Positions 11,789-26,212 of a stretch of 64,000 nucleotides of DNA are shown piece by piece. The position numbers and the translations under genes were made by a program. Source of the stretch: Dokdonia sp. (GTDB lineage: Bacteria; Bacteroidota; Bacteroidia; Flavobacteriales; Flavobacteriaceae); contig JAHDIF010000002.1 in the NCBI GenBank assembly GCA_020630915.1, positions 124,001 through 188,000 on the forward strand, written 5' to 3'. Below the pieces are notes generated by a model that was not told the origin of the DNA, did not search any database, and worked only from the letters and a program-made list of their open reading frames with translations. Each line of letters begins with the position of its first letter. Positions within the stretch are counted from its first letter, which is position 1.

Positions 11789-14700
11789 TTAATTTAATTT
11801 TATGGTTTTAATTTCTTTAAATGGTAGTACATCTAAAGCTTTCATCGTCGCCTCAAAAGAGGTCCACTTTTCAGAAAAGAAGTTATTTGTTTTTTCTATA
11901 GCTGCTTCTAGTTCTGTTTTTGCTTGAGCCAGCAATCTATCTTCAGTTGCTGTCATACCGTTGGGTCTACTTCCTGCGTACTGTCTTGCAACTCCTATGC
12001 GACGCATCACCGTAGGCGCTGGATTACGGGTGATTCCCTGACGCTTATCTTCTTTGCCTATATATAGTGCCATCACTTTGTCTATCTCTTTTGCCATATC
12101 CTTTGCTGCTTTGATATGATCCTTATGAGCTTCTTTATCTTTCTCCTTAAGATCTTTATGATAGGACTCTGCTATTTTTTTACTTTCTACTAACTGTTTC
12201 ACAGCACCTGCAGCCGTTTGAGTGTAGGCTTGGAGTAATTTTTCACGCTCGTATCTTTCGTCAATGGCTTTTTGCGGCACTTCTAATCTAGGGTCTGTAG
12301 CCACCGTAATCATTTGCTCACTCGACTGGTCACCATAACTCATTACTAATTTATAGGTCCCTGGTTTTACGGTAACACCTCCTGGCTCATTCTTGCGTTT
12401 TCTTATCGTACGAGAAGGTCTGTCTCCGCCCGCTTCATTAAGGAACCAAGTCATCTTATGTATCCCACTACTATCTGGAGTTTTTGTTTTAAGATGGCGT
12501 ATCTGGCGACTACCGTCATATATTTTTAGGTGAATAGAGTCCCATTTAGGAGTATTCTTTTCCATTTCTGCAGAGGCGGAAATCTCGTCATCATCTTCTT
12601 TGGCATCCGCGAAGGCGGATGTCTCGTTCTCTTTTTCCTTCTTTGTTATATAGTACTTAATCTGAGCCCCAAAGTCTCTATTCTCTCCGTTGTAGAGTGC
12701 ATCTCCTCCAAAACGGCTACCTGTAGGCTGTTGGTAGGCTGCATCATAGGCCGTAGGTGGTTGAAAGAGTTCAAGCTTTCGCGAAAGCGTACCCCTATCC
12801 TTAGCAATTGCTCTGAGTGGTCTAATATCATCCAGCACCCAAGCCGCCCGCCCAAAAGTCCCGATAACCAAATCGTGCTCTCTAGGATGAATCACTAAAT
12901 CTTTTACGGAAGTAGTTGGGAATCCTTTAGTATACTTGGTCCAATTGCTTCCTGCGTCTATAGAGATATATAAACCATCGTCTGTTCCTAAAAAGAGAAG
13001 GTTCTTTTCTTCTGGATCTTCTATAATACTTAGGGCATAACTCTGTACATCTTGTGCATCTACAATGCGCGTCCAAGTTTTTCCATAATTGGTGGTTCTG
13101 TAGGCGTAAGGTGTATAATTAAACCGTCTGTAATCATTTGCTACGAGTAGCGCTTCTCCTTTGTTCTTGTTACTAGCCTTGATCTGTACAATCCAGCTAC
13201 CTGTAGGCAATCCTTTTAAATTTTTGGTTACTTCAGTATAGCTCTGGCCACCATTTTGCGTGTAATGCACGCGACCATCATCGGACCCTACCCAAAACAT
13301 ATTTTTTTCCAGCGGGGAAGGCTCGATCACTAAAATTGTGGTGTGATTCTCGGCCCCAGTGGCGTCCATAGAAAGTCCGCCAGATTCGCTTTGTTTCTGT
13401 TTCTCAGGATCGTTGGTTGTTAAGTCTGGTGATATTACGTCCCAAGTAAGCCCCTTATCTGTACTCTTGTGCACAAACTGGCTTCCAAAATAAATAGTAT
13501 TACTATCAAACGGATCTATATTAATCGCACTATTCCAATTAAATCGTAATTGCACGTCTGGATCAGGATGTGTAGGTCTTACCGAATAGTTGTTACCCGT
13601 TTGCCAGTCGTAACGACTCACAAACCCTTGCTGACTCATACTATATCCATATCTACTGTCATCTGGATCTGGAACGACATCAAAACCATCTCCAAAGGAT
13701 ATCTCCTGCCAGTAATGATTTCTAATGCCTTGCGCTCTCCACACATAGGCAGGACCTCTCCAGCTACCATTATCTTGCATACCACCGTATACGTTGTAAG
13801 GAAATTCATTATCTACCGCAATGTGGTAAAACTGTGCCACAGGTAGATTCCCTATAAAACGCCACGTTTTTCCGCCGTCTTTGGTAATATTCATACCACC
13901 GTCATTTCCGTCTATCATAAACTTACCGTTTGTAGGATGTATCCACCAGGCGTGGTGATCTGGGTGTACACCATTGTCTACACCATAAGCACCCATAAGC
14001 TGCTTAAAGTTTTTACCACCATCTTCAGATACGTTTACGTACGTAAAAATCGAGAAGACTCTATTTTCATTTTGAGGATCTACATAAATCTCGCTATAAT
14101 AGAAAGGCCTGTTTCCTATATCGCTCTTGTCATTTACTTTTTTCCAGTTAAATCCACCGTCGTTAGAACGGTATAATGCGTTTTTCTTGGCTTCTACTAG
14201 GGCATATACCACATTTGGGTTATTGCGAGCAATAGCAATACCTATTCTTCCTAAATCTCCTTTGGGTAATCCATCTGTATCAGAAAGTTTTTTCCAAGTA
14301 TCGCCACCATCATGTGTCATATACATACCACTTCCAGAGCCTCCAGATTTAAAGAACCAAGGATCGCGCTTGTGTTCCCACATCGCGACAAAGAGCTTGT
14401 TAGGGTTGCTCGGGTCCATGACCATATCTGCGACACCGGTTTTATTATTATTAAAGAGTATTTTTTTCCACGTTTTACCACCATCTGTTGTTTTAAAAAC
14501 GCCGCGTTCTGGATGTTCACCCCAAGGGGAGCCTATGGCACCTACATACACCACATTAGGATTAGTAGGGTCGATAATCACACGATGGATGTGGCGTGTT
14601 TTTTCTAGTCCCATAGATTTCCACGTTTTACCCCCGTCTAGAGATTTATAAACTCCATACCCTCCATTAAGGGAGTTACGCGGGTTTCCTTCTCCTGTTC

Positions 14701-15147: not shown

Positions 15148-16272
15148 ATGAAAAGAAACACTCATAACCGCTCTGGTTTTGTTTTTACCACTTATACTGC
15201 GCCATCGCAGTCCAAGTTTGAACAATTACTCGATATTTTTCAAGAATTAATCACCCATACTTCTGGAGATTTTGATGAAGCGATGGATTGGTTAAAGCAA
15301 TTAGATGAGGAGTATAAGCTTACCAATGAAGAGTATACGCTGGATGATTTTGTCCAAGAACTCAAAGATAAGGGCTATATACGGGAGGAGATAAAACCGG
15401 ATGGCACTCAAAGTGCTACAATTACAGAAAAGACCGAGCGTGCCATTAGACAGCGAGCGTTGGATCAGATATTTGGAAAACTTAAAAAAAGTGCCCAAGG
15501 AAATCACCGTTCTAAGCAATCGGGAAGAGGTGATGAGCATACGGGTGACTATCGAGATTACCGTTTTGGCGATCCGTTAGAGCGTATCTCCATGACCGAA
15601 AGCTTACGTAATGCACAGATTAATAATGGCGTGGGCGATTTTAGCTTACGCGAAAGCGATCTCATAGTAGAAGAAACCCATTTTAAAGCCCAGATGAGCA
15701 CTGTGCTTATGATTGATATCTCGCACAGTATGATTCTGTATGGAGAAGATCGCATCACACCCGCAAAGAAAGTCGCTATGGCACTGGCGCAATTAATTAC
15801 CACGCGTTATCCAAAGGATAGTCTAGATGTGATTGTTTTTGGTAATGACGCCTGGCCTATTAAAATAAAGGAGCTTCCTTATTTACAGGTAGGACCTTAT
15901 CATACAAATACCGTGGCTGGACTGGAGCTTGCGATGGATATCCTGCGCAGAAAGCGTAACACAAACAAACAAATCTTTATGATTACAGATGGCAAACCTA
16001 GCTGCCTAAAACTTAAAGACGGGCGATATTATAAAAATCCTAACGGTCTAGATGAGCATATTGTAAGTAAATGTTACAGTATGGCGCGTCAAGCGCGAAA
16101 GGTAAACATCCCCATCACCACCTTTATGATTGCAAATGATCCCTACTTACAACAGTTTGTAGATAATTTTACAGAAGCAAACCAAGGAAAAGCCTTTTAC
16201 ACAGGATTACAAGGCCTAGGCGAAATGATCTTTCAAGATTATGAAACCAATCGTAAGAAGAAAATAAGGTAA
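15148..16272 (+). CDS. VWA domain protein of a VWA/AAA-ATPase pair
   Basis: 374 aa. The N-terminal ~170 residues are helical and charged. A von Willebrand A domain (about residues 180-360) carries the MIDAS motif D-I-S-H-S ('VLMIDISHSMILYG') and 'MITDGKPS'. The AAA+ ATPase two genes downstream is the likely partner: such pairs resemble the ChlD/ChlI and MoxR/VWA chaperone systems that use ATP to load metal or remodel a target. The last 12 codons are duplicated 147 bp downstream. A palindrome-like copy (15644-15657) reads as LRES. Confidence 0.85.
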   Translation: MKRNTHNRSGFVFTTYTAPSQSKFEQLLDIFQELITHTSGDFDEAMDWLKQLDEEYKLTNEEYTLDDFVQELKDKGYIREEIKPDGTQSATITEKTERAIRQRALDQIFGKLKKSAQGNHRSKQSGRGDEHTGDYRDYRFGDPLERISMTESLRNAQINNGVGDFSLRESDLIVEETHFKAQMSTVLMIDISHSMILYGEDRITPAKKVAMALAQLITTRYPKDSLDVIVFGNDAWPIKIKELPYLQVGPYHTNTVAGLELAMDILRRKRNTNKQIFMITDGKPSCLKLKDGRYYKNPNGLDEHIVSKCYSMARQARKVNIPITTFMIANDPYLQQFVDNFTEANQGKAFYTGLQGLGEMIFQDYETNRKKKIR

Positions 16273-16275
16273 ATG
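16237..16275 (+). repeat. Tail repeat copy 1 (3' end of VWA gene)
   Basis: 39 bp covering the last 12 codons of the VWA gene, its TAA and the ATG that follows. It matches 16384-16422 with one mismatch (AAA/AAG, both Lys). Confidence 0.95.
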
Positions 16276-16419
16276 TGTATGTATCAGAATGCCATAGTTA
16301 CGCCTAGGATTAGGGTGGTTACTTTAGAAAATGACTACTTTTTTGAGTCATTTTCTAAATTTTTCCGTTTCCTTTTTGTGAAGGATTATGAAACCAATCG
16401 TAAGAAGAAGATAAGGTAA
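16273..16419 (+). CDS. 48-codon cassette ORF between VWA and DUF1835 genes
   Basis: Starts with the ATG directly abutting the VWA stop (TAA|ATG) and ends at a TAA directly abutting the DUF1835 ATG. It is in the same frame as the VWA gene. Residues 1-37 are new sequence, aromatic-rich ('YFFESFSKFFRFLFVK'). Residues 38-48 repeat the C-terminus of the VWA protein ('DYETNRKKKIR'). It could be a real small protein, a C-terminal extension if the VWA stop is read through, or only the trace of an inserted element. A 14-bp inverted repeat lies within it. No homologue is recognised. Confidence 0.3.
   Translation: MCMYQNAIVTPRIRVVTLENDYFFESFSKFFRFLFVKDYETNRKKKIR
16323..16359 (+). terminator. Hairpin inside the 147-bp cassette
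   Basis: Perfect 14-bp stem (16323-16336 / 16346-16359) with a 9-base loop, followed by TTTTT. As an attenuator it would lower expression of the two genes behind the VWA gene. Confidence 0.55.
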
Positions 16420-16422
16420 ATG
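16384..16422 (+). repeat. Tail repeat copy 2
   Basis: Second copy of the VWA gene tail, placed so that its TAA is followed at once by the DUF1835 start codon. Offset from copy 1 is exactly 147 bp. Confidence 0.95.
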
Positions 16423-17163
16423 CCAGAACATATCTATCATATCACAAATGGAGATGCTTTATCAGATCGCCTAGAAGAGCTTAAAATAGAAGGAGTGATC
16501 TTGACAATGCGAGAATGCTTGATTGATGGACCCAAAGATACTTCCAAAGGTTTCGAGGTTTTTTTAAAATTACGTGAAGGTTTTATATACGAGCAATTTG
16601 GTCGAGAACATTCATATGATGAGTATGTGGTTTCTGAATTTAAAAAGATGAAGAAGATTTCTGAAGATAGTGTCATTTACTTTTGGTTTGAAGATGATTT
16701 GTTTTGTCAAGCAAACTGGTGGTTTTTGCTCTATTATCTACGAGATAGCAAAGCAAAAAAGTACTTAGTACGCTCCGGAGATACATCGCCGTATAGTTTT
16801 GCGAGATTGAGTGATAAAGAGTTGTTGAACGCGTTTGAAGTAAGAGTAGAGTTGGTAGAACAGGAGTTGACGGCATTATGGGAATTGTATGCAAACGATG
16901 ATAGTCAAGGTATAGAAGCCTTATCAGAATCGTTTGTAAAGAAATACTATTTTGTAAAACCTGCTTTTAAGGCACATATGGATAGATTGCCTTCAAGCAA
17001 CTCTTTAGTTAAACCAAAAGAAACTGTAAAGGAAATAGGAGCAGAGTTGGGTTTTGAGAATTTTGGCAAGCTGTTTCAAGAATTTCAGAGAAGGTTGCCT
17101 ATGTATGGATACGGAGATTTGCAAGTGCAAAATATATTGAAAGAATTAAAAAAAGAAAATTAG
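16420..17163 (+). CDS. DUF1835 domain protein
   Basis: 247 aa. The N-terminal ~120 residues match DUF1835 ('HITNGDALSDRLEELKIEG...MRECLIDGP'), and the C-terminal helical part resembles DUF3658 ('ALWELYANDD...KKYYFVKPAFKAHMDRLPSS'). Function unknown. It lies between the VWA and AAA genes and its start codon abuts the stop in tail-repeat copy 2. That fits an ancestral operon in which VWA and DUF1835 were directly adjacent (TAAATG) before the 147-bp cassette appeared. 4 bp separate it from the ATPase gene. Confidence 0.8.
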   Translation: MPEHIYHITNGDALSDRLEELKIEGVILTMRECLIDGPKDTSKGFEVFLKLREGFIYEQFGREHSYDEYVVSEFKKMKKISEDSVIYFWFEDDLFCQANWWFLLYYLRDSKAKKYLVRSGDTSPYSFARLSDKELLNAFEVRVELVEQELTALWELYANDDSQGIEALSESFVKKYYFVKPAFKAHMDRLPSSNSLVKPKETVKEIGAELGFENFGKLFQEFQRRLPMYGYGDLQVQNILKELKKEN

Positions 17164-17167
17164 AAAT

Positions 17168-18634
17168 ATGAATATAGAAAAGATTCAAACGCTTGGAGCG
17201 CTTAAAAAAAGTGGCTGGCAATCGAGAAGTATTAAGGATGAGCTGCGCGCTAACCTTATACACAAGATTCAAAACCACGAGCCTACTTTTGAAGGTATAC
17301 ACGGCTATGAGCATACGGTTATTCCTGAGTTGGAGCGCGCCATACTTTCCAGACATAATATCAACTTATTAGGATTGCGTGGTCAAGCTAAGACAAGGCT
17401 TGCACGCCAAATGGTTAATTTATTGGATGAATATATTCCTGTGGTAGCAGGTTCTGAGATCAATGATGATCCGTTAAAGCCTTTATCACGCTATGCTAAG
17501 GAACTGATAAATGAAAAAGGAGACGATACCCCTATCGCTTGGTTACACCGCTCTGAGCGCTTTGCAGAGAAGTTAGCGACGCCAGACGTAACCGTGGCAG
17601 ATATAATAGGAGATGTAGATCCTATAAAAGCGGCAAACCTTAAACTGAGCTATGCAGATGACCGCGTAATACACTTTGGGATGATACCGCGTGCCAACCG
17701 ATGTATTTTCGTTATTAATGAATTACCCGATTTACAAGCACGTATTCAGGTTGCGCTGTTCAATATTCTTCAGGAAGGCGATATTCAAATACGTGGGTTT
17801 AAACTGCGTTTAGATCTAGATATGCAATTTGTATTTACGGCAAATCCAGAAGACTATACCAATAGAGGAAGTATTGTTACGCCACTTAAAGATAGAATAG
17901 GGTCGCAAATACTCACGCACTACCCAGAAGATATTGCTACGGCACGAACGATTACAGAACAGGAAGCTAAGATTGATGGAAGACAAAAGGAAAAAATACA
18001 CGTGCCTGATCTAGCAAAAGATTTATTAGAGCAGCTTAGTTTCTCTGCCAGAGACAGCGAGTTTATAGACGAAAAAAGCGGGGTAAGTGCGCGTATGAGT
18101 ATCACTGCTTTTGAAAATTTATTAAGTACGGCAGAGCGCAGAGCTTTAATGAATGGAGAAGAAGGCACTACAGTACGTTTTGGAGACCTCATAGGTATAG
18201 TTCCATCTATTACAGGGAAAGTTGAGCTCGTATATGAAGGAGAGCAGGAAGGAAGCGCAGAGGTCGCTAAAACACTCATAGGGGATGCTACAAAAGAATT
18301 GTTTGATCAATACTTTCCGAAAATTGAAAAATTAACGAAAGAAGAAGATCAAGATCCTTATGAGCAATTGCTGGCTTGGTTTTTTGAGCAGTCAGGTTTT
18401 GAGCTTGAAGATGGCTTGCATAATAAAGAGTATAAAGAAGAACTGGATAGTATTACACCTTTAGTAGATTTGGTAAAAAAATATCAGCCAGATACGCCAG
18501 AAGAAGATCGCTATTTTATGATGGAATTCTTATTATGGGGGTTGGTAGAAAATAGAAAGCTCAGTAAATATAGAATGACCACTGGAATGCGCTTTAACGA
18601 TTTGTATGGAAGTTATATTTCTGGATTAAGTTAA
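17168..18634 (+). CDS. AAA+ ATPase (Mg-chelatase ChlI/MoxR-like), partner of the VWA protein
   Basis: 488 aa. Walker A variant 'GLRGQAKTR' (near residue 65), Walker B 'CIFVINELPDL' (near 180) and sensor/arginine region 'FTANPEDYTNRGSIVTPLKDRIG', as in ChlI/MoxR-type AAA+ proteins with the helix-2 insert. The C-terminal ~180 residues form a lid and helical tail. With the VWA protein it should form an ATP-driven chaperone or chelatase-like complex. The target is not shown by the context. Last gene of the operon, with a terminator ~60 bp downstream. Confidence 0.85.
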   Translation: MNIEKIQTLGALKKSGWQSRSIKDELRANLIHKIQNHEPTFEGIHGYEHTVIPELERAILSRHNINLLGLRGQAKTRLARQMVNLLDEYIPVVAGSEINDDPLKPLSRYAKELINEKGDDTPIAWLHRSERFAEKLATPDVTVADIIGDVDPIKAANLKLSYADDRVIHFGMIPRANRCIFVINELPDLQARIQVALFNILQEGDIQIRGFKLRLDLDMQFVFTANPEDYTNRGSIVTPLKDRIGSQILTHYPEDIATARTITEQEAKIDGRQKEKIHVPDLAKDLLEQLSFSARDSEFIDEKSGVSARMSITAFENLLSTAERRALMNGEEGTTVRFGDLIGIVPSITGKVELVYEGEQEGSAEVAKTLIGDATKELFDQYFPKIEKLTKEEDQDPYEQLLAWFFEQSGFELEDGLHNKEYKEELDSITPLVDLVKKYQPDTPEEDRYFMMEFLLWGLVENRKLSKYRMTTGMRFNDLYGSYISGLS

Positions 18635-18649
18635 TAGTACTGCTGATGT

Positions 18650-18675
18650 GATTCTGAAAATAAATTCAGAATGAC
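18650..18675. repeat. REP-like imperfect palindrome, copy B
   Basis: Reverse complement reads TCATTCTGAA, 6 bases, TTTCAGAATC, the same ends as copy A at 6771-6798. Confidence 0.6.
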
Positions 18676-18694
18676 AAGAATTGGGGTGGTTATA

Positions 18695-18732
18695 AAAAAG
18701 AGTTTGTAGCTTTTTGCACAAACTCTTTTTTT
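18695..18732 (+). terminator. Intrinsic terminator after the AAA ATPase gene
   Basis: 13-bp perfect stem (18695-18707 / 18718-18730), 10-base loop, ending in a run of Ts. Confidence 0.85.
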
Positions 18733-18960
18733 GTACTTAAGTTGAATACTGTAAAAATAGGAGTGAGGAAGGTAGTCGTGAAGTTGGAATAGATGGATGA
18801 CGCTTGTAAATAGTTAGGCTTGTTCGATATACTTTTTGTATTAATAAAGAGGTGTTTTGAGTATTTTATGTAAAGTACAATTATATAAACCTATATTTTA
18901 TATAAGATCCTTAAACATCTGATTTAAAATAAATTATTTATTTTATTTAGTTTTGTCTAA

Positions 18961-18996
18961 AAATATAAAAGCTCCTAATTAGGAGCTTTTATATTT
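18961..18996. terminator. 36-bp perfect palindrome, bidirectional terminator
   Basis: 18-bp arms without spacer; GC core GCTCC/GGAGC flanked by A-rich and T-rich ends, so it has a U-tract in either direction. It lies 31 bp beyond the stop of the LysM gene. Confidence 0.8.
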
Positions 18997-19026
18997 ATAA
19001 TTTTAAGTCTCAACGACTCTTGAAAA

Positions 19027-19404
19027 TTAAGCATTCGGTATCGTTAGTTCTTGTCCAGGATGGATCACATCTGGGTTCTTTAGGATATCTGTATTTGCTT
19101 CAAAAATTGCTTTGTACTTCATAGGGTCTTTGTAATACTTCTTTGCGATTAAGCTTAAAGATTCACCACCTTGTACGGTGTGTTTTGCATAGTAAGAAGT
19201 ATCTGCAACTTTAATATCTGCCATAATATCTCCAGGATTCTCTCCTCCAGCAGCTTTAATTGCATCCCATAATTGATCTTTTTCAAACTGATTTGCAGCT
19301 GTTCCTGTTACATGTAACACGCCATTTTCTTCCTTTACATCACCACCTTGAATATTTAATTCTGCTCCTAAATCAAGTACATTTTGATATTTTGCTTTTA
19401 CCAT
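19027..19404 (-). CDS. BON-LysM protein (Kbp/YgaU-like)
   Basis: 125 aa. N-terminal BON-like domain (about residues 1-65: 'GGDVKEENGVLHVTGTA'), then a LysM domain (about 72-122: 'HTVQGGESLSLIAKKYY...NPDVIHPGQEL'). This is the architecture of E. coli Kbp/YgaU, a potassium-binding protein. No signal peptide is visible, as in Kbp. Single gene. Confidence 0.88.
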   Translation of the reverse strand: MVKAKYQNVLDLGAELNIQGGDVKEENGVLHVTGTAANQFEKDQLWDAIKAAGGENPGDIMADIKVADTSYYAKHTVQGGESLSLIAKKYYKDPMKYKAIFEANTDILKNPDVIHPGQELTIPNA

Positions 19405-19534
19405 TGTTTTGGGTTTTAAATTAGTAATTATCTAAATATACAAAGACTAGCGTATTTAACTTGGCTGCGGTTAGCAAAATTGCTAGGATAATGAAAAATT
19501 GCCTTTAGGCGAGAAATCTACCCGTTTAATCGAA

Positions 19535-20338
19535 CTAGTCTTCAAAAATTAATCTGCCTGTAAATAATTCTTCCACATTTATATTTTCTGCAGGTGGCTG
19601 GTTGCGGGCAATGACGTCGCCCGTTGCCCTAATCTGACCCGTGATGCTGTTTTGAGGATTCACAATCATAGGAGCCGCACCCGTATGTCTAAATATTAGG
19701 TCCCCTATTAACAGATTAGACGCTTCCAATAGCGGAAACTCATCTGAGAAATTAATATTTGCACTCGTTGTAGTACCCGTAATATAGAAGTCACTATTAC
19801 CATTTGCTACTACTCTAAAGTCTGCACAGTTGATATCTAAGAAAAAATCGCCTGTTTTATTGACGTCTTCTAGTCCTGGGGTTGTAATGCTTTCTAATAT
19901 TAACGTAGGAAAGGATAAAGTACCTTGACTGCGTACTTCACCGATACTATTATTTTTAATAAATTTAAGATTGGGGGTTGTAAGTTTCACTTTGGTTTGC
20001 AATGTTTCTCTAAAAAGATTGCATTTATTGTTATTTCGTGCGATAAAGGTATCCCCTTCTACAAAAAAAGCAAGGTCATTCCATAGGTTAGCACGTGTTT
20101 CAATAGTGATAGATTGACTATCACCTTGTGTGATTTCAATACTTACATCATTGTCTATTCGCACTCTGGTAAACTCGGGCAGTGTGATAGATCTTGAAAT
20201 TATTTCTCCGTCTGTTTGTAAACAATCTGTAGCGTCTTCTGAGTTGCAACTGGATAGTACAAGGGTTATGATGAATAGTGTGATTGATCGCTTTCGCGAA
20301 AGCGTACTTAAATTAAATTTCCCTAAAAATCGTATCAT
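19535..20338 (-). CDS. Head-GIN domain lipoprotein (DUF2807)
   Basis: 267 aa. Lipoprotein signal with lipobox 'LSSC' after an unusually long N-region that is coded by an exact palindrome copy ('LSRKRS'). The rest is a right-handed beta-solenoid DUF2807/head-GIN domain ('LPEFTRVRIDNDVSIEITQGD...'), proposed for Bacteroidetes surface adhesin-like proteins. The exact start is uncertain: an internal start would remove the palindrome-coded part. The gene overlaps the upstream deacylase gene by 4 bp, so they are co-transcribed. Confidence 0.8.
   Translation of the reverse strand: MIRFLGKFNLSTLSRKRSITLFIITLVLSSCNSEDATDCLQTDGEIISRSITLPEFTRVRIDNDVSIEITQGDSQSITIETRANLWNDLAFFVEGDTFIARNNNKCNLFRETLQTKVKLTTPNLKFIKNNSIGEVRSQGTLSFPTLILESITTPGLEDVNKTGDFFLDINCADFRVVANGNSDFYITGTTTSANINFSDEFPLLEASNLLIGDLIFRHTGAAPMIVNPQNSITGQIRATGDVIARNQPPAENINVEELFTGRLIFED
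20290..20303. repeat. Palindrome GCTTTCGCGAAAGC, exact copy 4
   Basis: At the 5' end of the head-GIN gene, read as Leu-Ser-Arg-Lys. Confidence 0.9.
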
Positions 20339-21432
20339 AATCTATATCCTATACCAAATTCAACAGCCTCTGCTTTTGCTCCGTGTGCTTTTACAGTTAC
20401 AGCGCCAAAAATGTGATTACCAAAATATCTTTTAAGCCCTACTCTAGCATACACACGGCCTTCAAAGTTATAGGGGTAATATATATAATACCCTAGTTGG
20501 GAAACAAAAGCTATATTTCCCAGTCTAAGTTCGTGACCTAGGAAGAGCCCTACTCGTTTCCAATCTTCATCACCACTTACACCAAAGCTTGGAAAGGCAA
20601 CGGCTTCAAAAGCAATTTGTTCCTTTAAAAATCTTGCAAAGAAGACATCTACTCCAGCCTGTAATGTGCTTTTTTTGTTAATTCGTTTATCTATGAAGGC
20701 AGATCCTATTATAAATGGATGTCTTCCTAGCCCTAATCGATCACTCTGGTTAATGCCTCCTCTTAGAACAAAGTTATAATGTAACGGCTCTGAGTAAGGT
20801 ATTTTTGTATCTGTAATAAATTCTGGTATTATCTGATCTTTAGGAGTGTAGATAAGGCCAAGATTAGCTGCTATTGTATTGGTGCTATTATTAGGTGCAC
20901 GCACATTCCCGTTTGAATAGTGTATAAGGCTAATTCCCGCTTGCAAAGAAATATTTTTATAAAGACGTTGATTAAAGTTAGCCATTGCATAGGTGGCGCT
21001 TAACAGATGACTGCCGTAGGCTGTATTCTTTTTATTTTCTAGAATGTCAAAAGGGTTTGAGGCATAAGCAACACCTTGCCCTAACCTTACCATAAGTTTT
21101 CTATTTAGAAAATAAAAGTTGTAATGGCCATAAAGTCCATATGCATTTCCTAAAAATTCATTGTCTCCATTTTGATATAGGAAAGAAAATCCCCAATCGG
21201 GATAGTTATACCTTCTTTCCCACTCATTAAAGCCATACGTTTTTCTATTGTAGCTGGCTATAAAACCTCTAGGATGCCCTGTTGCAAGAGGTGCAATATC
21301 TTTACTGTGCTTTGCTATATTGCCGTAAAAATAGTTGAGATCTAAGCTAAAAGGTTTGGGGTCAGTTTCTTGAGAGAGACTGAAAAATGGCACTAGGCCA
21401 AAAATAAGTAATAGGTGTATTATTCTTTTCAC
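20335..21432 (-). CDS. Acyloxyacyl hydrolase / lipid A deacylase (PagL-like)
   Basis: 365 aa with the chosen GTG start at 21432, which gives a normal signal peptide ('KRIIHLLLIFGLVPFFSLSQ'). A longer form from ATG 21489 adds 19 residues but places the signal inside. The mature protein is a beta-barrel; 'LIHYSNGNVRAPN' carries the PagL His-x-Ser-Asn catalytic motif. It would remove an acyl chain from lipid A in the outer membrane. The frame runs through a near-copy of the palindrome (21433-21444) just before the GTG. The stop overlaps the head-GIN start by 4 bp. Confidence 0.82.
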   Translation of the reverse strand: MKRIIHLLLIFGLVPFFSLSQETDPKPFSLDLNYFYGNIAKHSKDIAPLATGHPRGFIASYNRKTYGFNEWERRYNYPDWGFSFLYQNGDNEFLGNAYGLYGHYNFYFLNRKLMVRLGQGVAYASNPFDILENKKNTAYGSHLLSATYAMANFNQRLYKNISLQAGISLIHYSNGNVRAPNNSTNTIAANLGLIYTPKDQIIPEFITDTKIPYSEPLHYNFVLRGGINQSDRLGLGRHPFIIGSAFIDKRINKKSTLQAGVDVFFARFLKEQIAFEAVAFPSFGVSGDEDWKRVGLFLGHELRLGNIAFVSQLGYYIYYPYNFEGRVYARVGLKRYFGNHIFGAVTVKAHGAKAEAVEFGIGYRL

Positions 21433-21502
21433 GCTTTCGCGAAAATAGGGAATAACCCACAAAGAGTCATAGTCCAAAATAATTTGCAAAAAAGAGTTTT
21501 CT

Positions 21503-21586
21503 TTACGATTCTCCTTGCATCATGGCTATAATACCGAGAATTAGACAAATTGCTAGACTTCCAAAAAATATACCACCTACTCCCAT
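21503..21586 (-). CDS. Candidate 27-aa membrane microprotein
   Basis: ATG 21586 to TAA 21503. The peptide is almost wholly one hydrophobic helix (MGVGGIFFGSLAICLILGII, then AMMQGES). It lies 14 bp ahead of the long ATG, or 70 bp ahead of the GTG, of the PagL-like gene on the same strand. No Shine-Dalgarno sequence or clear promoter is visible, and no homologue is recognised, so it may be chance, but its codons and composition look like a real single-span microprotein. Confidence 0.35.
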   Translation of the reverse strand: MGVGGIFFGSLAICLILGIIAMMQGES

Positions 21587-21939
21587 AATTATTTTTTTAT
21601 AAGTTGTTGAAGGTTAATTTAAGAAAAAACTGATAAAATTTAAAAAGGAATTAGTTAATAATTTTGAGTTATACCGAGTGATTTTAGTCTTATACTGCCA
21701 TAGATATCTTGTTTAACCCCTAAACTCCTTAGATTATTACACCTATACCTCTCTTTAAGTTTAACCGTAGTTTAAATAGCTAGCCAGATCGCATTTGTTT
21801 GGTTTATGCTTTTGCGAAAGCATATCATTTATAACCAAGGTTTTACTAATGAACTATATAAAAGGGTTTCATTAAAAATTAGCAAAGTTTGAGATAGTTA
21901 CATAAAAGTGATTTAACTTGCACCATATTTATATACTTT
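21587..21939. other. 353-bp divergent intergenic region
   Basis: AT-rich region between the minus-strand deacylase side and the plus-strand Omp85 gene. It contains an 18-bp near-palindrome of the GCTTTCGCGAAAGC family (21806-21823) and a weak -7-like TAACTTG near 21915. Nothing else can be supported. Confidence 0.6.
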
Positions 21940-23106
21940 ATGAATCATACATATAAGCGTGTTGCTTTAGTATTAGGGCTCATTTGGATTTTTCTAGGAG
22001 TTCAAGATATACAGGCACAAAATTTAGAAAAGCTTGCAGAACTTATTACGTTTTACCCTAATAAAAAAGCGGTAGAAAAGGATTCAACCCTTTATTTGCA
22101 GAAGTTTATTGCTGCTCCCGTGGTTACCTTTAGTCCCGAAACAAGCCTGGCTTTTGGAACAGGAGCAAAGTATCTCTTTAAATTTAATGGGAGTGGAGAA
22201 GAAACGAGGGCTTCGAATATCCCAATGTCTATAAGATATACTTTAAATAATCAATTTATCTTTTATTCTGGATTTGAGGTTTTTACAAATCAAGAAAAAT
22301 GGGTGATAGAAGGTAATTTGTTATTTCAGAACTATCCAAGATTGTTTTATGGACTAGGGAGAAATAGCTCAAAAGAAACAGAATTAGAATATAATTACTA
22401 TCAATTTCTTGCCGAGCCTATATTTTTAAAACAGCTTTTCGCCCGTTACCTTTTTATAGGGGCTGGAATACGATACAACACAATTTTTGATGTAGAATAT
22501 CAAGAAGACATTCCAGTAGGAGGTGATCAAATTACAGGATTTAATGGCAGCACCTCAATGGGAGTTGAGGCGGCCGTTTTATACGACAGTCGTAACAATA
22601 TATTAAATGCAGAAAATGGTTGGTATGTAGAGGCTACATACGGCGTATATGGCAAAGCACTAGGAGGTACGAACCGTTTTCAACTCACTAGGTTTGATAT
22701 TAGACATTTTGTTGGACTTTCTGAAAAAGGGAAAGACATATTAGGATTTCAATTATTAAGTAGATTTTCTAGTGGTGATGTCCCTTTTAATGAGCTAGCG
22801 CTTTTAGGGGGTAATGAGATTATGCGAGGATATAGAGAAGGACGATATGTAGATAGACACTTAATTGCGGGTCAGATGGAATATCGTAAGACTTTTGGAG
22901 ATTCTAGATGGGGGGCAGTGGCATTTTTAGGAGGAGGAGACGTCTCCAATTCTGTTAGTGGGTTTAGTTTAAAGAATATCAGGCCTAACTATGGAGCAGG
23001 AATCCGTTTTAAACTTGATAAAACTGAGAATCTCAATCTGCGTTTTGACTATGGTATAGGTCAAGATTCTAATTATTTTTACTTTACAATAGCAGAGGCA
23101 TTTTAG
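21940..23106 (+). CDS. BamA/TamA (Omp85) family outer-membrane protein
   Basis: 388 aa with signal peptide (cleavage near 'QDIQAQ', residue ~27). The chain is mostly a C-terminal 16-strand-type surface-antigen (D15) barrel with few or no POTRA repeats. The conserved Omp85 loop-6 motif appears as 'IMRGYREGRY' near residue 295, and the C-terminus ends in an aromatic (AEAF), as outer-membrane signals do. Short Omp85 proteins of this type often act outside the main BAM complex. Substrate unknown. Confidence 0.85.
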   Translation: MNHTYKRVALVLGLIWIFLGVQDIQAQNLEKLAELITFYPNKKAVEKDSTLYLQKFIAAPVVTFSPETSLAFGTGAKYLFKFNGSGEETRASNIPMSIRYTLNNQFIFYSGFEVFTNQEKWVIEGNLLFQNYPRLFYGLGRNSSKETELEYNYYQFLAEPIFLKQLFARYLFIGAGIRYNTIFDVEYQEDIPVGGDQITGFNGSTSMGVEAAVLYDSRNNILNAENGWYVEATYGVYGKALGGTNRFQLTRFDIRHFVGLSEKGKDILGFQLLSRFSSGDVPFNELALLGGNEIMRGYREGRYVDRHLIAGQMEYRKTFGDSRWGAVAFLGGGDVSNSVSGFSLKNIRPNYGAGIRFKLDKTENLNLRFDYGIGQDSNYFYFTIAEAF

Positions 23107-23179
23107 CCTTGACATATCACTTTACTAATTAGAATTAGGATCATTTTTTTAATTGGTTATATGTAAACTTTAAACAATA

Positions 23180-23713
23180 ATGATGATTAAAAAGATACTT
23201 TTTCTCTTTGCTGCAGTATTATTTACTTCCTGCGGAAGCTATAATTCCATTGACTCGTTTTACAACGCTCATAAAAATGACGATCAGGTACAAGCCGTTA
23301 GAGTACCTCGTTTTATGTTTACGTTGCTAAGTAGTATTTCACCAGAAACAGACGCGCTCATAGGTAATACAAAAGACTTGCGATATATGCAGTTTCCAAG
23401 CACGACCACAGAACGCGCTACCTATCTTAATGAGCAAATGATGGGGATTACTGGTAGTGCCTTTATAGAAGTATATCGCAATAATGACAAGGAGGCGCGT
23501 AACGTGATTTCTATACGAGAGAGAGGAGATGTGGTTAAAGAAATTCTGGTCTACAAAAACAACTCAAATAAAGGATCTTTCCTTTATTTTAATGGAAATT
23601 TTGATCCAGTACAAGTACAGCAAATGGTAAAAAATAGAGATTTTGACAAGCTAGGAGATGGTTTGATTAATCAGTTTACTGGGAGCGTTGCACCTACGAT
23701 TATAAGTCAATAG
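23180..23713 (+). CDS. DUF4252 lipoprotein
   Basis: 177 aa. Lipobox 'LFTSC' (Cys19), then a DUF4252 domain ('RVPRFMFTLLSSI...FIEVYRNNDKEARNVISIRERG'), a Bacteroidetes family without known function. ATG 23180 is used, with a second ATG one codon on. It is probably an independent gene, 73 bp after the Omp85-type gene. Confidence 0.8.
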   Translation: MMIKKILFLFAAVLFTSCGSYNSIDSFYNAHKNDDQVQAVRVPRFMFTLLSSISPETDALIGNTKDLRYMQFPSTTTERATYLNEQMMGITGSAFIEVYRNNDKEARNVISIRERGDVVKEILVYKNNSNKGSFLYFNGNFDPVQVQQMVKNRDFDKLGDGLINQFTGSVAPTIISQ

Positions 23714-23815
23714 AATGCTTATTGTTTTAAACACAAACCGAAAACAAAAAGATTTAATAAGGTCCTTTTAGCACGGACTACAGTTGTTGCAGGATTACCT
23801 CGATGCTCTCGGTGA

Positions 23816-23840
23816 TCCTCAAAGCTCCGCTTTGAAAATA
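23816..23840. repeat. Direct repeat near tRNA, copy 1
   Basis: CTCAAAGCTCCGCTTTGAAA segment; the second copy at 23987-24011 differs by an extra C and a C/T change. Confidence 0.7.
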
Positions 23841-23848
23841 GCACAAAC

Positions 23849-23882
23849 AAAAAAACGCTCAAGCAAGCTTGGCGTTTTTTCT
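23849..23882 (+). terminator. Intrinsic terminator
   Basis: AAAAAACGC ... GCGTTTTTT stem with an inner CAAGC/GCTTG helix and one bulge, with a run of Ts on the plus strand. It lies ~140 bp after the DUF4252 gene and may end its transcript, or in reverse the tRNA transcript. Confidence 0.7.
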
Positions 23883-23986
23883 TATTGTACTATTTACTAT
23901 CGACCTCTAAAGGACAGTGGTCAAACTTATTATCTAAAGCATTAGCCTGATAGATATATACACGAACAGGATTCGCTAGCGCGCAT

Positions 23987-24011
23987 CCCTCAAAGCTCCG
24001 TTTTGAAAATA
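23987..24011. repeat. Direct repeat near tRNA, copy 2
   Basis: Second copy of the segment at 23816-23840. Confidence 0.7.
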
Positions 24012-24064
24012 AAAAAACCGAAAACAAAATTTTGAGTAAACTCAATTTCGTTTCCGGTTTTTTT
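24011..24064 (-). terminator. Terminator hairpin downstream of tRNA-Arg
   Basis: Outer stem AAAAAAACCG / CGGTTTTTTT (10 bp) with an imperfect inner helix centred near 24038. On the minus strand it begins 10 bp after the tRNA 3' end. Confidence 0.75.
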
Positions 24065-24073
24065 ATTTATTTG

Positions 24074-24147
24074 TGACCTCGACAGGATTCAAACCTGTAA
24101 CCTTCTGAGCCGTAATCAGATGCGCTATTCAGTTGCGCCACGAGGCC
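24074..24147 (-). tRNA. tRNA-Arg (anticodon ACG)
   Basis: 74-nt cloverleaf on the minus strand. Acceptor GGCCTCG pairs with CGAGGTC (one G:T), discriminator A, no encoded CCA. Anticodon loop TTACGGC between TCTGA and TCAGA gives ACG, normally deaminated to ICG to read CGU/CGC/CGA. T-arm GGTTTGAATCC is standard. A Bacteroidetes promoter lies ~30 bp upstream and a terminator 10 bp downstream. Confidence 0.95.
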
Positions 24148-24178
24148 GTTAGTGCTTTTGATTACTCAAATGCGGGTG

Positions 24179-24208
24179 CAAATATATTTCTTTTTATCTT
24201 GTGGCAAA
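24179..24208 (-). promoter_or_regulatory. Promoter of tRNA-Arg
   Basis: On the minus strand: TTTG at 24208-24205, 18-bp spacer, then TATATTTG at 24186-24179, a full match to the Bacteroidetes -33/-7 consensus. The transcript would start near 24172, 25 nt before the tRNA. Confidence 0.7.
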
Positions 24209-24226
24209 AGAAAAATCTCTAAAAAA

Positions 24227-24739
24227 ATGCAACTGAACGATTACATACGTGACATAGAGGACTTTCCAAAAGAGGGGATTACTTTTAAAGATATTACCCC
24301 TTTACTTGGGAATGCCACAGCTTTCGCGAGAGCGGCTTCACAATTAAAAGCACTCGTAGGTGATCAAACCATAGATGTAGTGGTAGGAGTGGAGTCTAGA
24401 GGTTTCTTTTTTGGAGGAGTGCTTGCAAAGGAATTCGGGGCTAGTTTTGTGCCGGTGCGCAAGCCTGGAAAACTACCTTATGAAACGGTCTCTCAAATGT
24501 ATGAACTGGAATATGGTACAGATACCTTAGAAATCCATAAAGATGCGATCAAGTTAGGAGATAGAGTGCTCTTGCACGACGATGTCTTAGCTACAGGTGG
24601 TACTGCCGCCGCTGTGGTAAGACTTATTGAAAGATTAGGAGGTGTAGTTGTACAGTGTAATTTTTTAATAGAATTGGACTTTTTAAAAGGACGAAACAAA
24701 CTACCCAAACAAAAAATTGCCGCTGTACTTAACTATTAG
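24227..24739 (+). CDS. apt: Adenine phosphoribosyltransferase
   Basis: 170 aa, the usual length. It converts adenine and PRPP to AMP (purine salvage). The PRPP-binding loop reads 'VLLHDDVLATGGTAAA' (near residues 117-132), and 'VGVESRGFFFGG' and 'RKPGKLPYET' are conserved. The ATG at 24227 was chosen because homologues begin 'MQLNDYIRDIEDFPKEG'; the frame also extends back toward the tRNA without support. A one-mismatch palindrome copy (24320) reads as AFARA. The 3' flank holds the displaced fahA tail copy. Confidence 0.95.
   Translation: MQLNDYIRDIEDFPKEGITFKDITPLLGNATAFARAASQLKALVGDQTIDVVVGVESRGFFFGGVLAKEFGASFVPVRKPGKLPYETVSQMYELEYGTDTLEIHKDAIKLGDRVLLHDDVLATGGTAAAVVRLIERLGGVVVQCNFLIELDFLKGRNKLPKQKIAAVLNY
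24320..24333. repeat. Palindrome family, near-copy
   Basis: GCTTTCGCGAGAGC, one mismatch, inside apt. Confidence 0.75.
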
Positions 24740-24772
24740 TCCAACGGCAATACTATATTTTTTGAGTAAAGG

Positions 24773-24808
24773 CTACTTCTTCTTTGGCTCAAACACAGGT
24801 AATAGTTT
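24773..24808 (-). repeat. Displaced copy of the fahA 3' end
   Basis: On the minus strand this codes 'KLLPVFEPKKK' and a stop, the same last 12 codons as fahA. The differences are AAG/AAA and GTC/GTG (both synonymous) and TAA/TAG. Its stop lies exactly 147 bp past the fahA stop. Confidence 0.95.
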
Positions 24809-24834
24809 TATGAGTAGTTGAAAACGCAAAGTTT

Positions 24835-24870
24835 CTCATTTTTTATGCTACGCATTTTATAAAAAATGAG
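24835..24870. other. Hairpin inside the 147-bp unit after fahA
   Basis: Perfect 12-bp stem (24835-24846 / 24859-24870) with a 12-base loop, at the same offset from the stop codon as the hairpin in the VWA cassette. There is no T-run, so it is a weak terminator candidate. Confidence 0.6.
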
Positions 24871-24919
24871 CAACAACCACCCATTGAGGTTTTAGGGCAA
24901 GCCTAGGCTTTGAAACTAA

Positions 24920-26212
24920 TTACTTCTTCTTTGGCTCAAAGACAGGTAATAGCTTGGTAGATACTTCACCAAAACCTATTCTTGGATGATCCTTTTTCTT
25001 AGAGTGACCTCGTATTATCACCGTGTCGTTATCTTCTATAAACTTGCGGTCGCCGCCTTCTTCCAGTTTAACAGGTTTTTCCCCACGCCAGGATAGTTCT
25101 AGCATAGAGCCAAAGGAATCTGGCGTTTTACCAGATAGCGTACCACTACCCATCATATCTCCAGCATTTACTGGGCACCCATTTACCGTGTGGTGCGCTA
25201 GTTGCTGGCTCATGTTCCAGTACATATATTTAAAGTTAGATCGTGCCACAACCGTTTCCTTCTTACCTTCAGGTTGTAGCGCTACTTCTAACTTAATATC
25301 AAAACTCTTTTTTCCTTCGTACTGCAAATAAGGGAGGAGTTCCTTTTGTGGTTTTGGGCTCTCTGTTCTAAAAGGTTCTAGAGCGTCTAGTGTTACAATC
25401 CAAGGAGATATGGAGGAAGCAAAGTTTTTTGCTAGAAATGGCCCTAAAGGCACATATTCCCACTTTTGTATATCACGCGCACTCCAATCGTTAAAAAGAA
25501 CGAGTCCAAAAATATTTTCCTCTGCTTTTTCTGTGGAGATTGACTCACCTAAATTATTTGCTGCGGTGGTAATAAATGCCATTTCGAGTTCAAAGTCTAC
25601 TAATCGTGAGGGGCCAAAAATAGGTTCTGTGGCGCCGTTGGGTAGTTTTTGCCCATTAGGTCGATGCACAGGAATTCCAGAAGGAATAATAGACGAGCTA
25701 CGCCCGTGATAGGCTACAGGAAGATGCAGCCAGTTAGGCATCAAGGCATTTTCCTTTCCACGGAACATTGTTCCTACATTGGTCGCGTGTTCTATACTAC
25801 TGTAAAAATCGGTATAATCTCCTATTTGCACTGGGAGTTGCATTTCTACCTCTTCCATCTTAAAAATGACAATGTCTCTGTCTTTTTTATTTTCGCGCAA
25901 AGCGGTATTGCTCTCTTCAAAAATTTCTGAAATACGGTTTCTTACCAGACGCCATGTCTTACGACCGTCTGCAATAAAATCGTTTAAAGTATCTTGAAGA
26001 AAAATATCATCTGTAAGTGGGATTCCTTCAAAATATCCCAATTGATGCAGTGCACCTAAGTCTATGGCATAGTCACCTATCCGGGTTCCTATAGTAATCA
26101 CATCATCTCTGGTTAAGAAAACACCAAAAGGAATATTCTGTATGGGGAAGTCTGTGTTCTTAGTAGTATCTAGCCAAGTTTTTTTTGTAGGGTCGTTTGC
26201 AGATAAGGGCAT
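24920..26212 (-). CDS. fahA: Fumarylacetoacetase
   Basis: 430 aa, full length. Hydrolyses fumarylacetoacetate to fumarate and acetoacetate, the last step of tyrosine and homogentisate breakdown. The FAH N-terminal domain (~1-120) is followed by the catalytic domain with 'DYTDFYSSIEHATNVG', 'LPVAYHGRSSS', 'DFELEMAFI' and 'NDWSARDIQKWEYVPLGPF', which hold the metal and catalytic residues of the family. The end of the gene ('LLPVFEPKKK', stop) is duplicated 147 bp downstream. It stands alone here and is convergent with apt. Confidence 0.96.
   Translation of the reverse strand: MPLSANDPTKKTWLDTTKNTDFPIQNIPFGVFLTRDDVITIGTRIGDYAIDLGALHQLGYFEGIPLTDDIFLQDTLNDFIADGRKTWRLVRNRISEIFEESNTALRENKKDRDIVIFKMEEVEMQLPVQIGDYTDFYSSIEHATNVGTMFRGKENALMPNWLHLPVAYHGRSSSIIPSGIPVHRPNGQKLPNGATEPIFGPSRLVDFELEMAFITTAANNLGESISTEKAEENIFGLVLFNDWSARDIQKWEYVPLGPFLAKNFASSISPWIVTLDALEPFRTESPKPQKELLPYLQYEGKKSFDIKLEVALQPEGKKETVVARSNFKYMYWNMSQQLAHHTVNGCPVNAGDMMGSGTLSGKTPDSFGSMLELSWRGEKPVKLEEGGDRKFIEDNDTVIIRGHSKKKDHPRIGFGEVSTKLLPVFEPKKK

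Follow-up and report, generated by a model that had tools for sequence, protein, structure and literature searches.

Two protein genes in the window, the whole stretch of 64 kb of Dokdonia DNA that was analysed, end in units in which a hairpin lies between two copies of the gene's own tail, and both units belong to one family, beyond chance. The hairpin of this family is preserved by covariation and is placed past stop codons of the same strand, the tail of each gene is duplicated locally, and one insertion can be recognized against an empty site. The explanation that we favour, with moderate confidence, is that the units are insertions of a non-autonomous mobile hairpin at gene 3' ends, accompanied by long target duplications and brought about by an unknown mover.

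The first unit is found at the 3' end of a gene for a VWA-domain protein (PF13519; 15148..16272, + strand), and all its parts lie on the same strand. The first copy of the target segment (16237..16313) comprises the gene tail, the stop codon and 41 nt beyond, with no match to the second copy remaining in its final 38 nt. It is followed by a 55-nt hairpin, GGTGG...CCGT (16314..16368; model R2, 63.5 bits), by the 15-nt right tail of the element (16369..16383) and by the clear part of the second copy (16384..16422), whose end takes in the start codon (16420) of the following gene. Positions 16237-16275 are repeated at 16384-16422 (38/39 identical, spacing 147), and the second copy preserves the TAA-ATG junction between the gene tail and the downstream open reading frame, which encodes 247 aa (16420..17163, + strand) and matches nothing in Pfam at E 0.001. 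The following gene, for an AAA-domain ATPase (17168..18634, + strand), bears a third, decayed family hairpin (18685..18735, + strand; 27.3 bits, E 4e-4) without CCGTT; a T run is present in this copy. Genes that share the C-terminus of the ATPase in the relatives G002, G013 and G015 also bear family units. Concerted evolution of the VWA tails is only partial (35, 35, 31, 30 and 21 of 36 positions within genomes, 26-32 of 36 for first tails between genomes), and it is therefore not claimed.

The second unit is located on the minus strand at the end of the fumarylacetoacetase gene fahA (24920..26212). Here, the first copy of the target segment (24882..24955), diverged in its hairpin-side part, is followed by a 58-nt hairpin, GGTGG...GCGT (24824..24881; model R2, 62.1 bits), by a 15-nt right tail (24809..24823) and by the clear part of the second copy (24774..24808), which ends with TAG instead of TAA. 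Positions 24921-24955 are repeated at 24774-24808, again with a spacing of 147 (33/35 identical). Only three ungapped direct repeats (at least 26/30, spacing 40-799) occur in the 64 kb, and the two units account for two of them; they are also the sole tail copies among the 79 ends of open frames of at least 100 codons in the window (26/30, spacing 90-260).

Both units had been proposed in a first-pass annotation made from sequence alone, and several of its claims could be evaluated. The units as described, with a spacing of 147, are confirmed by the repeat coordinates and identities, and the differences between tail copies are indeed synonymous or stop-for-stop, as read from the sequences. Among the motifs listed as shared, GGTGGTT and CGTTT held, both being part of the family core; GCCTAGG and a Lys-Lys-Lys tail failed as family features, as they are absent from other members. 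The fixed lengths proposed for core, tail copy and whole unit (111/36/147) also failed, since spacings of 102-229 were found and the copied segment exceeds 36 bp in most measurable units. A spacing of 147 is common rather than fixed and is made up of a hairpin of about 58, a right tail of about 13 and a repeated segment of about 75.

The family core consists of a hairpin of about 58 nt, with GGTGGTT preceding the stem and a 3' side that reads TTTCCGTT, followed by a right tail mostly of 8-16 nt. Stem sequences vary among copies while pairing is preserved. In particular, in 43 copies 94.6% of stem cells pair vs 66.7% in shuffles, double changes number 229 vs 69.5 in shuffles, and 16/16 stem pairs covary. 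These 43 copies had been chosen using the stem test; in 11 distinct strict-pattern matches chosen without it, 133/143 positions between the fixed ends pair vs a fraction of 0.41 in shuffles. Foot pairs covary as well, with A-T for G-C in 3/70 copies and C-G for G-C in another 3/70, and the foot helix holds two invariant G-U pairs. Stem mismatches are more often G-U (28) than A-C (14; p 0.04). Of 114 copies, most have GTGG next to the stem and 7 have GTAG.

A covariance model of the hairpin gave 180 matches in 8/18 genomes of the genus (G000, G002, G003, G010, G012, G013, G015 and G017) and no match in the remaining 10, with 6, 38, 14 and 60 matches in G000, G002, G010 and G015, respectively. 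Genomes that were assembled separately have units at the same genes, and hairpins are more similar between orthologous loci than between genes, so that much of the distribution is inherited; similar hairpins are also present at different genes of a single genome (up to 0.93, L211 and L220). Outside the genus, the units in G095, G382 and G079 lack a significant tail copy, and in G095 and G382 they sit within open frames. A search against Rfam 15 returned only a tRNA in the window and no match near the gathering score for the array L153, and no description of the family was found in a partial search of the open-licence literature. Phage carriage was considered and rejected, as the strict pattern had 0 exact matches in viral_contigs; looser copies would escape this search.

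The position of the units relative to genes is strict. Indeed, 66/69 first units are preceded by a same-strand stop at a distance of 3-230 nt (median 29.5), compared with 525/1000 random intergenic positions and with 16/69 when the same units are tested for the opposite strand. In 79/110 measured units the local gene tail repeats past the hairpin with a score exceeding the null's 99th percentile, and the other 31/110 stay under threshold; at 12 additional places found by R2, tail copies score >44 in 7 and 20-37 in 5. The tails are specific to each gene, and one hairpin family is found at many genes. In 42/53 first units with a scoring copy, the copy begins 8-16 nt past CCGT. Measured up to GGTGG over 45 first units, the repeated segment has a median of 79 bp (range 29-263) and falls within 65-85 bp in 21/45; by alignment, the first copy extends to 4 nt or less from GGTGG in only 21/43 listed units. 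The right tail showed no microhomology to the sequence preceding the target (1.23/6 matches vs 1.69 in shuffles), with the caveat that matches are already absorbed by the alignment. Half a hairpin follows the second tail in several last units. In L138, L143, L153 and L147, as read by eye, units are nested, the repeated segment starting within an older hairpin that has another stem.

The first-pass annotation had further proposed that the family enters protein genes at their 3' ends and rebuilds these ends, and this is supported by a scan that made no use of the core and by one empty site. The scan, which the annotation itself had named as a test able to refute its proposal, covered 400 kb of the 2.97-Mb genome and 400 kb of the relative G015, and found tail copies at 4/887 ORF ends, all four enclosing a hairpin; at hairpin-free loci of relatives the control gave 1/1790. 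The empty site is retained by two relatives, G002 and G012, at one G015 locus. Of the two arms of the G015 locus, the left matches positions 0-139 of the G002 stretch and the right matches 59-307; this overlap means that 80 bp are doubled around the hairpin, and the comparison with G012 gives 73 bp. Behind the second tail, the ancestral downstream sequence follows directly. One locus thus shows an insertion that duplicated 73-80 bp of target, and the empty-site evidence rests on that locus alone.

In the mechanism that we propose, the element would be a non-coding sequence of about 70 nt, composed of GGTGG, the hairpin, CCGTT and about a dozen G-poor nucleotides, with a 16-bp stem whose sequence is free and whose pairing is fixed. 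A trans-acting enzyme working on a folded single strand, either RNA or DNA, is inferred to move it, and no such enzyme has been found. The element would enter just past stop codons, oriented like the gene, and a connection with transcription, also inferred, may explain the single orientation. Staggered opening of the target over the length of the repeated segment, and filling in, would leave this segment on both sides. With the stop codon inside the segment, the end of the gene would be kept on the left and the following sequence on the right. New copies landing in old ones may then generate arrays of tail-hairpin-tail-hairpin-tail, and recombination between direct repeats may change the copy number. 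As counterpoints to mobility, half hairpins behind the last tails are also expected from tandem duplication and decay, and selection for a role in the host could account for the strict placement. A bolder reading, to which we give rather less than even credence, is that these hairpins of about 70 nt form a new class of bacterial mobile element, recognized by shape and two short flanks and not by sequence, with transcription- or RNA-coupled insertion at gene 3' ends, duplications of about 75 bp and a type of enzyme not yet known for this activity.

Within the limits of the small mobile repeats that were compared, the family fits none. REPs are short palindromes with a GTAG/GTGG-like tag, found as single copies and in tandem groups, with stems mostly of 6-9 bp (PMC3733652). 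The family shares with REP/RAYT systems the short palindrome, the tag at one flank of the hairpin and the single and tandem occurrence, but differs in its 16 covarying stem pairs of free sequence, its fixed CCGTT side, its long local target duplication and its sense placement past stop codons, as well as in the lack of a detected Y1 enzyme in five of eight carriers. YPAL and RU-2 of Yersinia and MITE-like repeats are likewise small, non-coding and without an enzyme of their own, and the target duplications of YPAL vary in size (3-26 bp; PMC2229807); here, however, the duplication has the much longer median and range given above, so that the short target duplication of MITEs agrees neither with this median nor with the empty site, and the relation to genes is fixed in both place and orientation. 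Integron attC sites are also hairpins of variable sequence and constant geometry past gene ends, in arrays, with core boxes of the form RYYYAAC ... GTTRRRY. The boxes of the present family do not have this form (by eye, the order on the sense strand is GTT...AAC), and its spacers are copies of host gene tails rather than cassettes. LINE/SINE-type retroposons have a defined end and a long, variable target duplication; the element here is only about 70 nt, and no RVT_1 enzyme was found in four carriers.

Among the alternatives, the one that survives best, though it is unlikely, is that the hairpin is a host 3'-UTR element (a terminator, stabilizer or processing site) under selection, with tails arising by local tandem duplication, a last hairpin that decays and nothing mobile. 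This would be consistent with the sense placement past stops in 66/69 units, with the similarity of hairpins at orthologous loci and with the half hairpins past last tails. Moreover, direct repeats around a hairpin should vanish quickly unless the hairpin is useful. On the other hand, the narrow start of the copy past CCGT at many unrelated genes is unexpected of free breakpoints, the second tail of the empty-site locus joins ancestral downstream sequence directly, and hairpins with other stems were seen, by eye, inside old ones. Intrinsic terminators combine a G+C-rich hairpin with a T run behind it; a terminator scan called neither window hairpin, but its rule (3 G-C pairs, short loop) would miss A+T-rich stems. 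Pure tandem duplication with free breakpoints, as a candidate in itself, is disfavoured by the right boundary and the empty site.

A route through RNA is very unlikely. Here, the hairpin would be attached to the 3' ends of mRNAs, and a reverse transcriptase starting from a nick within the gene would write the joined sequence back into the gene end. Such a route would yield sense orientation, a defined hairpin end and a variable tail length, and it agrees with placement past same-strand stops, with the G-U excess among mismatches and with the invariant G-U foot pairs, which are uninformative by themselves. However, the junction lacks microhomology, and RVT_1 (PF00078), present in carriers G003, G012, G013 and G017, was not found in G000, G002, G010 and G015 despite their hairpin matches. 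An RVT_1 enzyme was thus rejected as the mover as far as the Pfam model sees, and divergent enzymes might escape it.

That the family is REP-like and moved by a Y1 (RAYT) transposase is all but excluded. The GTGG at the hairpin foot resembles the GTAG/GTGG tag of REPs (PMC3733652), but the stems are longer and free in sequence, long tail duplication is absent among the REP features in the relevant sections of that paper, and Y1_Tnp (PF01797), found in 4/18 genomes including carriers G003, G012 and G013, was not found by its Pfam model in G000, G002, G010, G015 and G017, which include the two genomes with the highest match numbers; a Y1 transposase was rejected as the mover within that limit. 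As neither model gave a match in four of eight carriers and no enzyme was found, the mobilization in trans suggested by the first-pass annotation is not established. Finally, chance repeats, assembly artefacts or remnants of site-specific integration at gene-specific attachment sites, for which it can be said that contig ends hold some hairpins (L144, L145, L221, L222), are practically ruled out by the same-gene units of separately assembled genomes, by the combination of gene-specific tails with a single hairpin family at many genes, and by the background of the control.

Bacteria commonly carry small palindromic repeats, many of which have no known mover. The present family makes this question testable, as it combines an insertion seen against an empty site, long duplications, a tight link to 3' ends, sense orientation and conservation of shape only. 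The long duplications would record where both target strands opened, and since 8 genomes of the genus carry the family and 10 have no copy found, the enzyme may emerge from a comparison of gene content. For these marine hosts, the usual duplication of the tail keeps the gene intact despite an element placed directly past its stop codon.

In the window, both gene tails lie next to copies of themselves at the places the first-pass annotation had indicated: the end of the VWA gene (16237-16275, plus strand) is repeated at 16384-16422, and that of fahA (24921-24955, minus strand), a gene whose 93% identity to fahA of an uncultured Dokdonia contig puts the organism close to Dokdonia, is repeated at 24774-24808, each with a spacing of 147. 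These units represent two of the three ungapped direct repeats (at least 26/30, spacing 40-799) in the 64 kb, and they alone among 79 ends of open frames of at least 100 codons bear a tail copy (26/30, spacing 90-260), a test positive at 1/1790 open-frame ends in 80 hairpin-free Flavobacteriaceae loci. A covariance model of the enclosed hairpin, R2, recovers both (63.5 and 62.1 bits), together with a third, decayed hairpin at 18685-18735, 3' of an AAA-domain gene (27.3 bits); family hairpins are also found in three congeneric genomes (G002, G013, G015) at genes whose C-terminus matches that of this AAA-domain gene. Separately, a 37-nt direct repeat (23817-23853 and 23988-24024, spacing 171, 84% identical) is flanked by the end of a gene on one side and by a tRNA gene (24074-24147, minus strand) on the other; it is not covered by any R2 match at E 5 or better.

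The annotation had also claimed that the two units share one tail-duplicating element. When tail copies (26/30, 90-260 bp) were sought without any hairpin criterion in 800 kb, 400 kb from the window's genome and 400 kb from congener G015, they were found at 4/887 open-frame ends (1/463 and 3/424, respectively), all four enclosing the family hairpin. The four strong R2 loci of these stretches are the same four ends; one additional weak match (L334, 28.6 bits) has no tail copy under the 26/30 test.

Insertion is shown at one gene, whose protein end is GSAIFGARNY-like, where the hairpin inserted and the tail was duplicated around it. The unit is present in G015 and G013, and no such hairpin is seen within 420 nt behind the stop of the same gene in G002, G012, G000, G003, G010 or G017. 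Set against the G002 stretch, the G015 locus matches bases 0-139 with its left arm and bases 59-307 with its right, so that 80 bp are doubled around the hairpin (73 bp with G012 as the empty site), and the right copy continues directly into ancestral downstream sequence. In the VWA unit, the second copy retains the TAA-ATG stop-start junction with the next gene, which points to a similar history.

When 18 genomes of the genus were searched at the DNA level, the arrangement recurred behind the same VWA gene in G002, G013, G017 and, with two units in succession, G010; G003 carries a unit at another gene. Further copies were found with a first covariance model and a sequence pattern; in all, 114 hairpins were collected by motif and stem test, with at least one in 71 of the 85 fetched sources, and the length from GGTGG to CCGT is 55-60 nt in 108 of them. 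At E up to 0.01, R2 matches number six in G000, 38 in G002, 8 in G003, 14 in G010, 19 in G012, 30 in G013, 60 in G015 and 5 in G017; the remaining ten genomes of the genus gave no match, and two of these ten are less than 80% complete. Since at most 150 candidates were scored per genome, these counts may be lower bounds; some weak matches are possibly reverse-strand echoes of a hairpin (1/11 in one set). The strict pattern GGTGGTTGTT-N20-50-AACTTTCCGT occurs at 12 places in 9/397 genomes and 7/237 genera of the taxonomic family (its backward control at one place), solely in the window's own genome among 395 sampled from the phylum, and without exact match in viral contigs. R2 likewise gave no match in 1.58 Mb surrounding fahA in 80 named Flavobacteriaceae contigs.

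The stem is supported by covariation. The share of paired cells, 94.6% of 902 over 43 non-redundant hairpins, drops to 66.7% in shuffles and to 49.7-56.0% in slid controls; double changes number 229 against 69.5 in shuffles, and covariation is seen at all 16 stem pairs. These hairpins were preselected by the stem test, which is a bias; a check free of it is offered by 11 distinct strict-pattern matches picked by motif alone, in which 133/143 positions pair between the fixed ends (0.41 with the middle shuffled). RNAalifold also recovers the stem unaided. The foot helix GGTGG/CCGTT is supported as well, by compensated changes at columns 4-58 (A-T for G-C in 3/70 non-redundant copies; one copy A/C) and 5-57 (C-G for G-C in 3/70; five more copies G/G, one G/T); its two G-U pairs are invariant and thus uninformative on their own. 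Stem mismatches are more often G-U than A-C (28 vs 14, p 0.04), which points weakly to folding of the sense strand. In a G010 subfamily (loci L304, L305), GGTGC...GCGTT replaces GGTGG...CCGTT, a compensated foot change, with GTGTT in 1/5 copies.

To measure the copied segment, the stretches preceding GGTGG and following CCGT were locally aligned to each other; the 99th percentile of a null built from other loci was exceeded in 79/110 measured units. Beyond the genus, genomes G318, G259, G029 and G301 show a clear copy by this measure, and G095, G382 and G079 do not. In 42/53 first units with a copy scoring at least 44, the copy starts 8-16 nt behind CCGT, and in 21/43 listed units the alignment extends to within 4 nt of GGTGG; the right tail is G-poor (41/572 bases). 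From first-copy start to GGTGG the segment measures 29-263 bp (median 79; 65-85 in 21/45), sizes that make periods near 147 common and so account for the spacing shared by the window's units, which the first-pass annotation had read as a family trait.

After 6 of 75 first units with too short a flank were dropped, 66/69 lie 3-230 nt (median 29.5) 3' of the stop of a same-strand open frame 80 codons long or longer; two of the exceptions are inside an open frame (G095, G382) and one is without any frame. The same-strand-stop test is passed by 525/1000 random intergenic positions of random strand and by 16/69 of the same units on the opposite strand; the 69 are not independent, as orthologous loci are included. 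Twelve further R2 places, several at genes seen before, have such a stop within 300 nt in 10 cases and tail-copy scores above 44 in seven and of 20-37 in five. A gene end encoding GGASGGW followed by the stop, which we take to belong to a TPM-like gene, bears units with differing stems in genomes of three genera (L157, L206, L231, L232, L308) and might be a preferred target.

Units also form arrays and apparently nest. Locus L138 has five in succession, and contig G015:C5 has six matches within 0.95 kb; adjacent hairpins may have unrelated stems. By eye, the start of the repeated segment falls within an older hairpin (in its 5' arm or its loop) at L138, L143, L153 and L147, as expected if new insertions hit old units. 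Within one genome, hairpins at different genes are up to 0.93 identical (one pair, a single place met at two contig ends, is excluded); median likeness is 0.74 between orthologous loci and 0.66 between different genes. A second dispersed repeat, TTCCCGTGAAGACGGGAATCT-like, lies in a family hairpin loop of the second unit at L173 (G002) and L289 (G015), and a related piece, TTTCCGCGAAGGCGGAAAT, stands behind a half hairpin at L224. Another repeat, the short palindrome GCTTTCGCGAAAGC, is very abundant and in this resembles cyanobacterial HIP1: the window has 12 copies, including within a gene (near 12770), against a base-composition expectation of about 0.0001, and 400-kb samples of G000 and G015 (L315-L354) have 85 and 70, respectively.

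No description of the hairpin family was found in the open-access literature searched, judged mostly from abstract openings. Bacterial MITE-like elements make short duplications, the widest noted being 3-26 bp, for YPAL (PMC2229807). Among alternative explanations, it remains possible that local amplification acted on a host 3'-end element, namely the hairpin; half hairpins that follow the last tail of several units speak for this, as do the locus-specific stems. REP/RAYT-type and ordinary reverse-transcriptase routes fare worse: REPs share a GTGG-like tag with the family hairpin but, unlike it, have shorter stems and RAYTs (PMC3733652), and evidence against both routes is that searches recovered no Y1_Tnp from carriers G000, G002, G010, G015 and G017 and no RVT_1 from G000, G002, G010 and G015 (G010 being 85% complete). 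With the mover unknown, the favoured reading is a non-autonomous mobile hairpin, upon whose insertion the target would be opened with a wide stagger. The single orientation of the hairpin at gene 3' ends could reflect, in ways not separable here, either a coupling to transcription or selection on the hairpin in the mRNA end.
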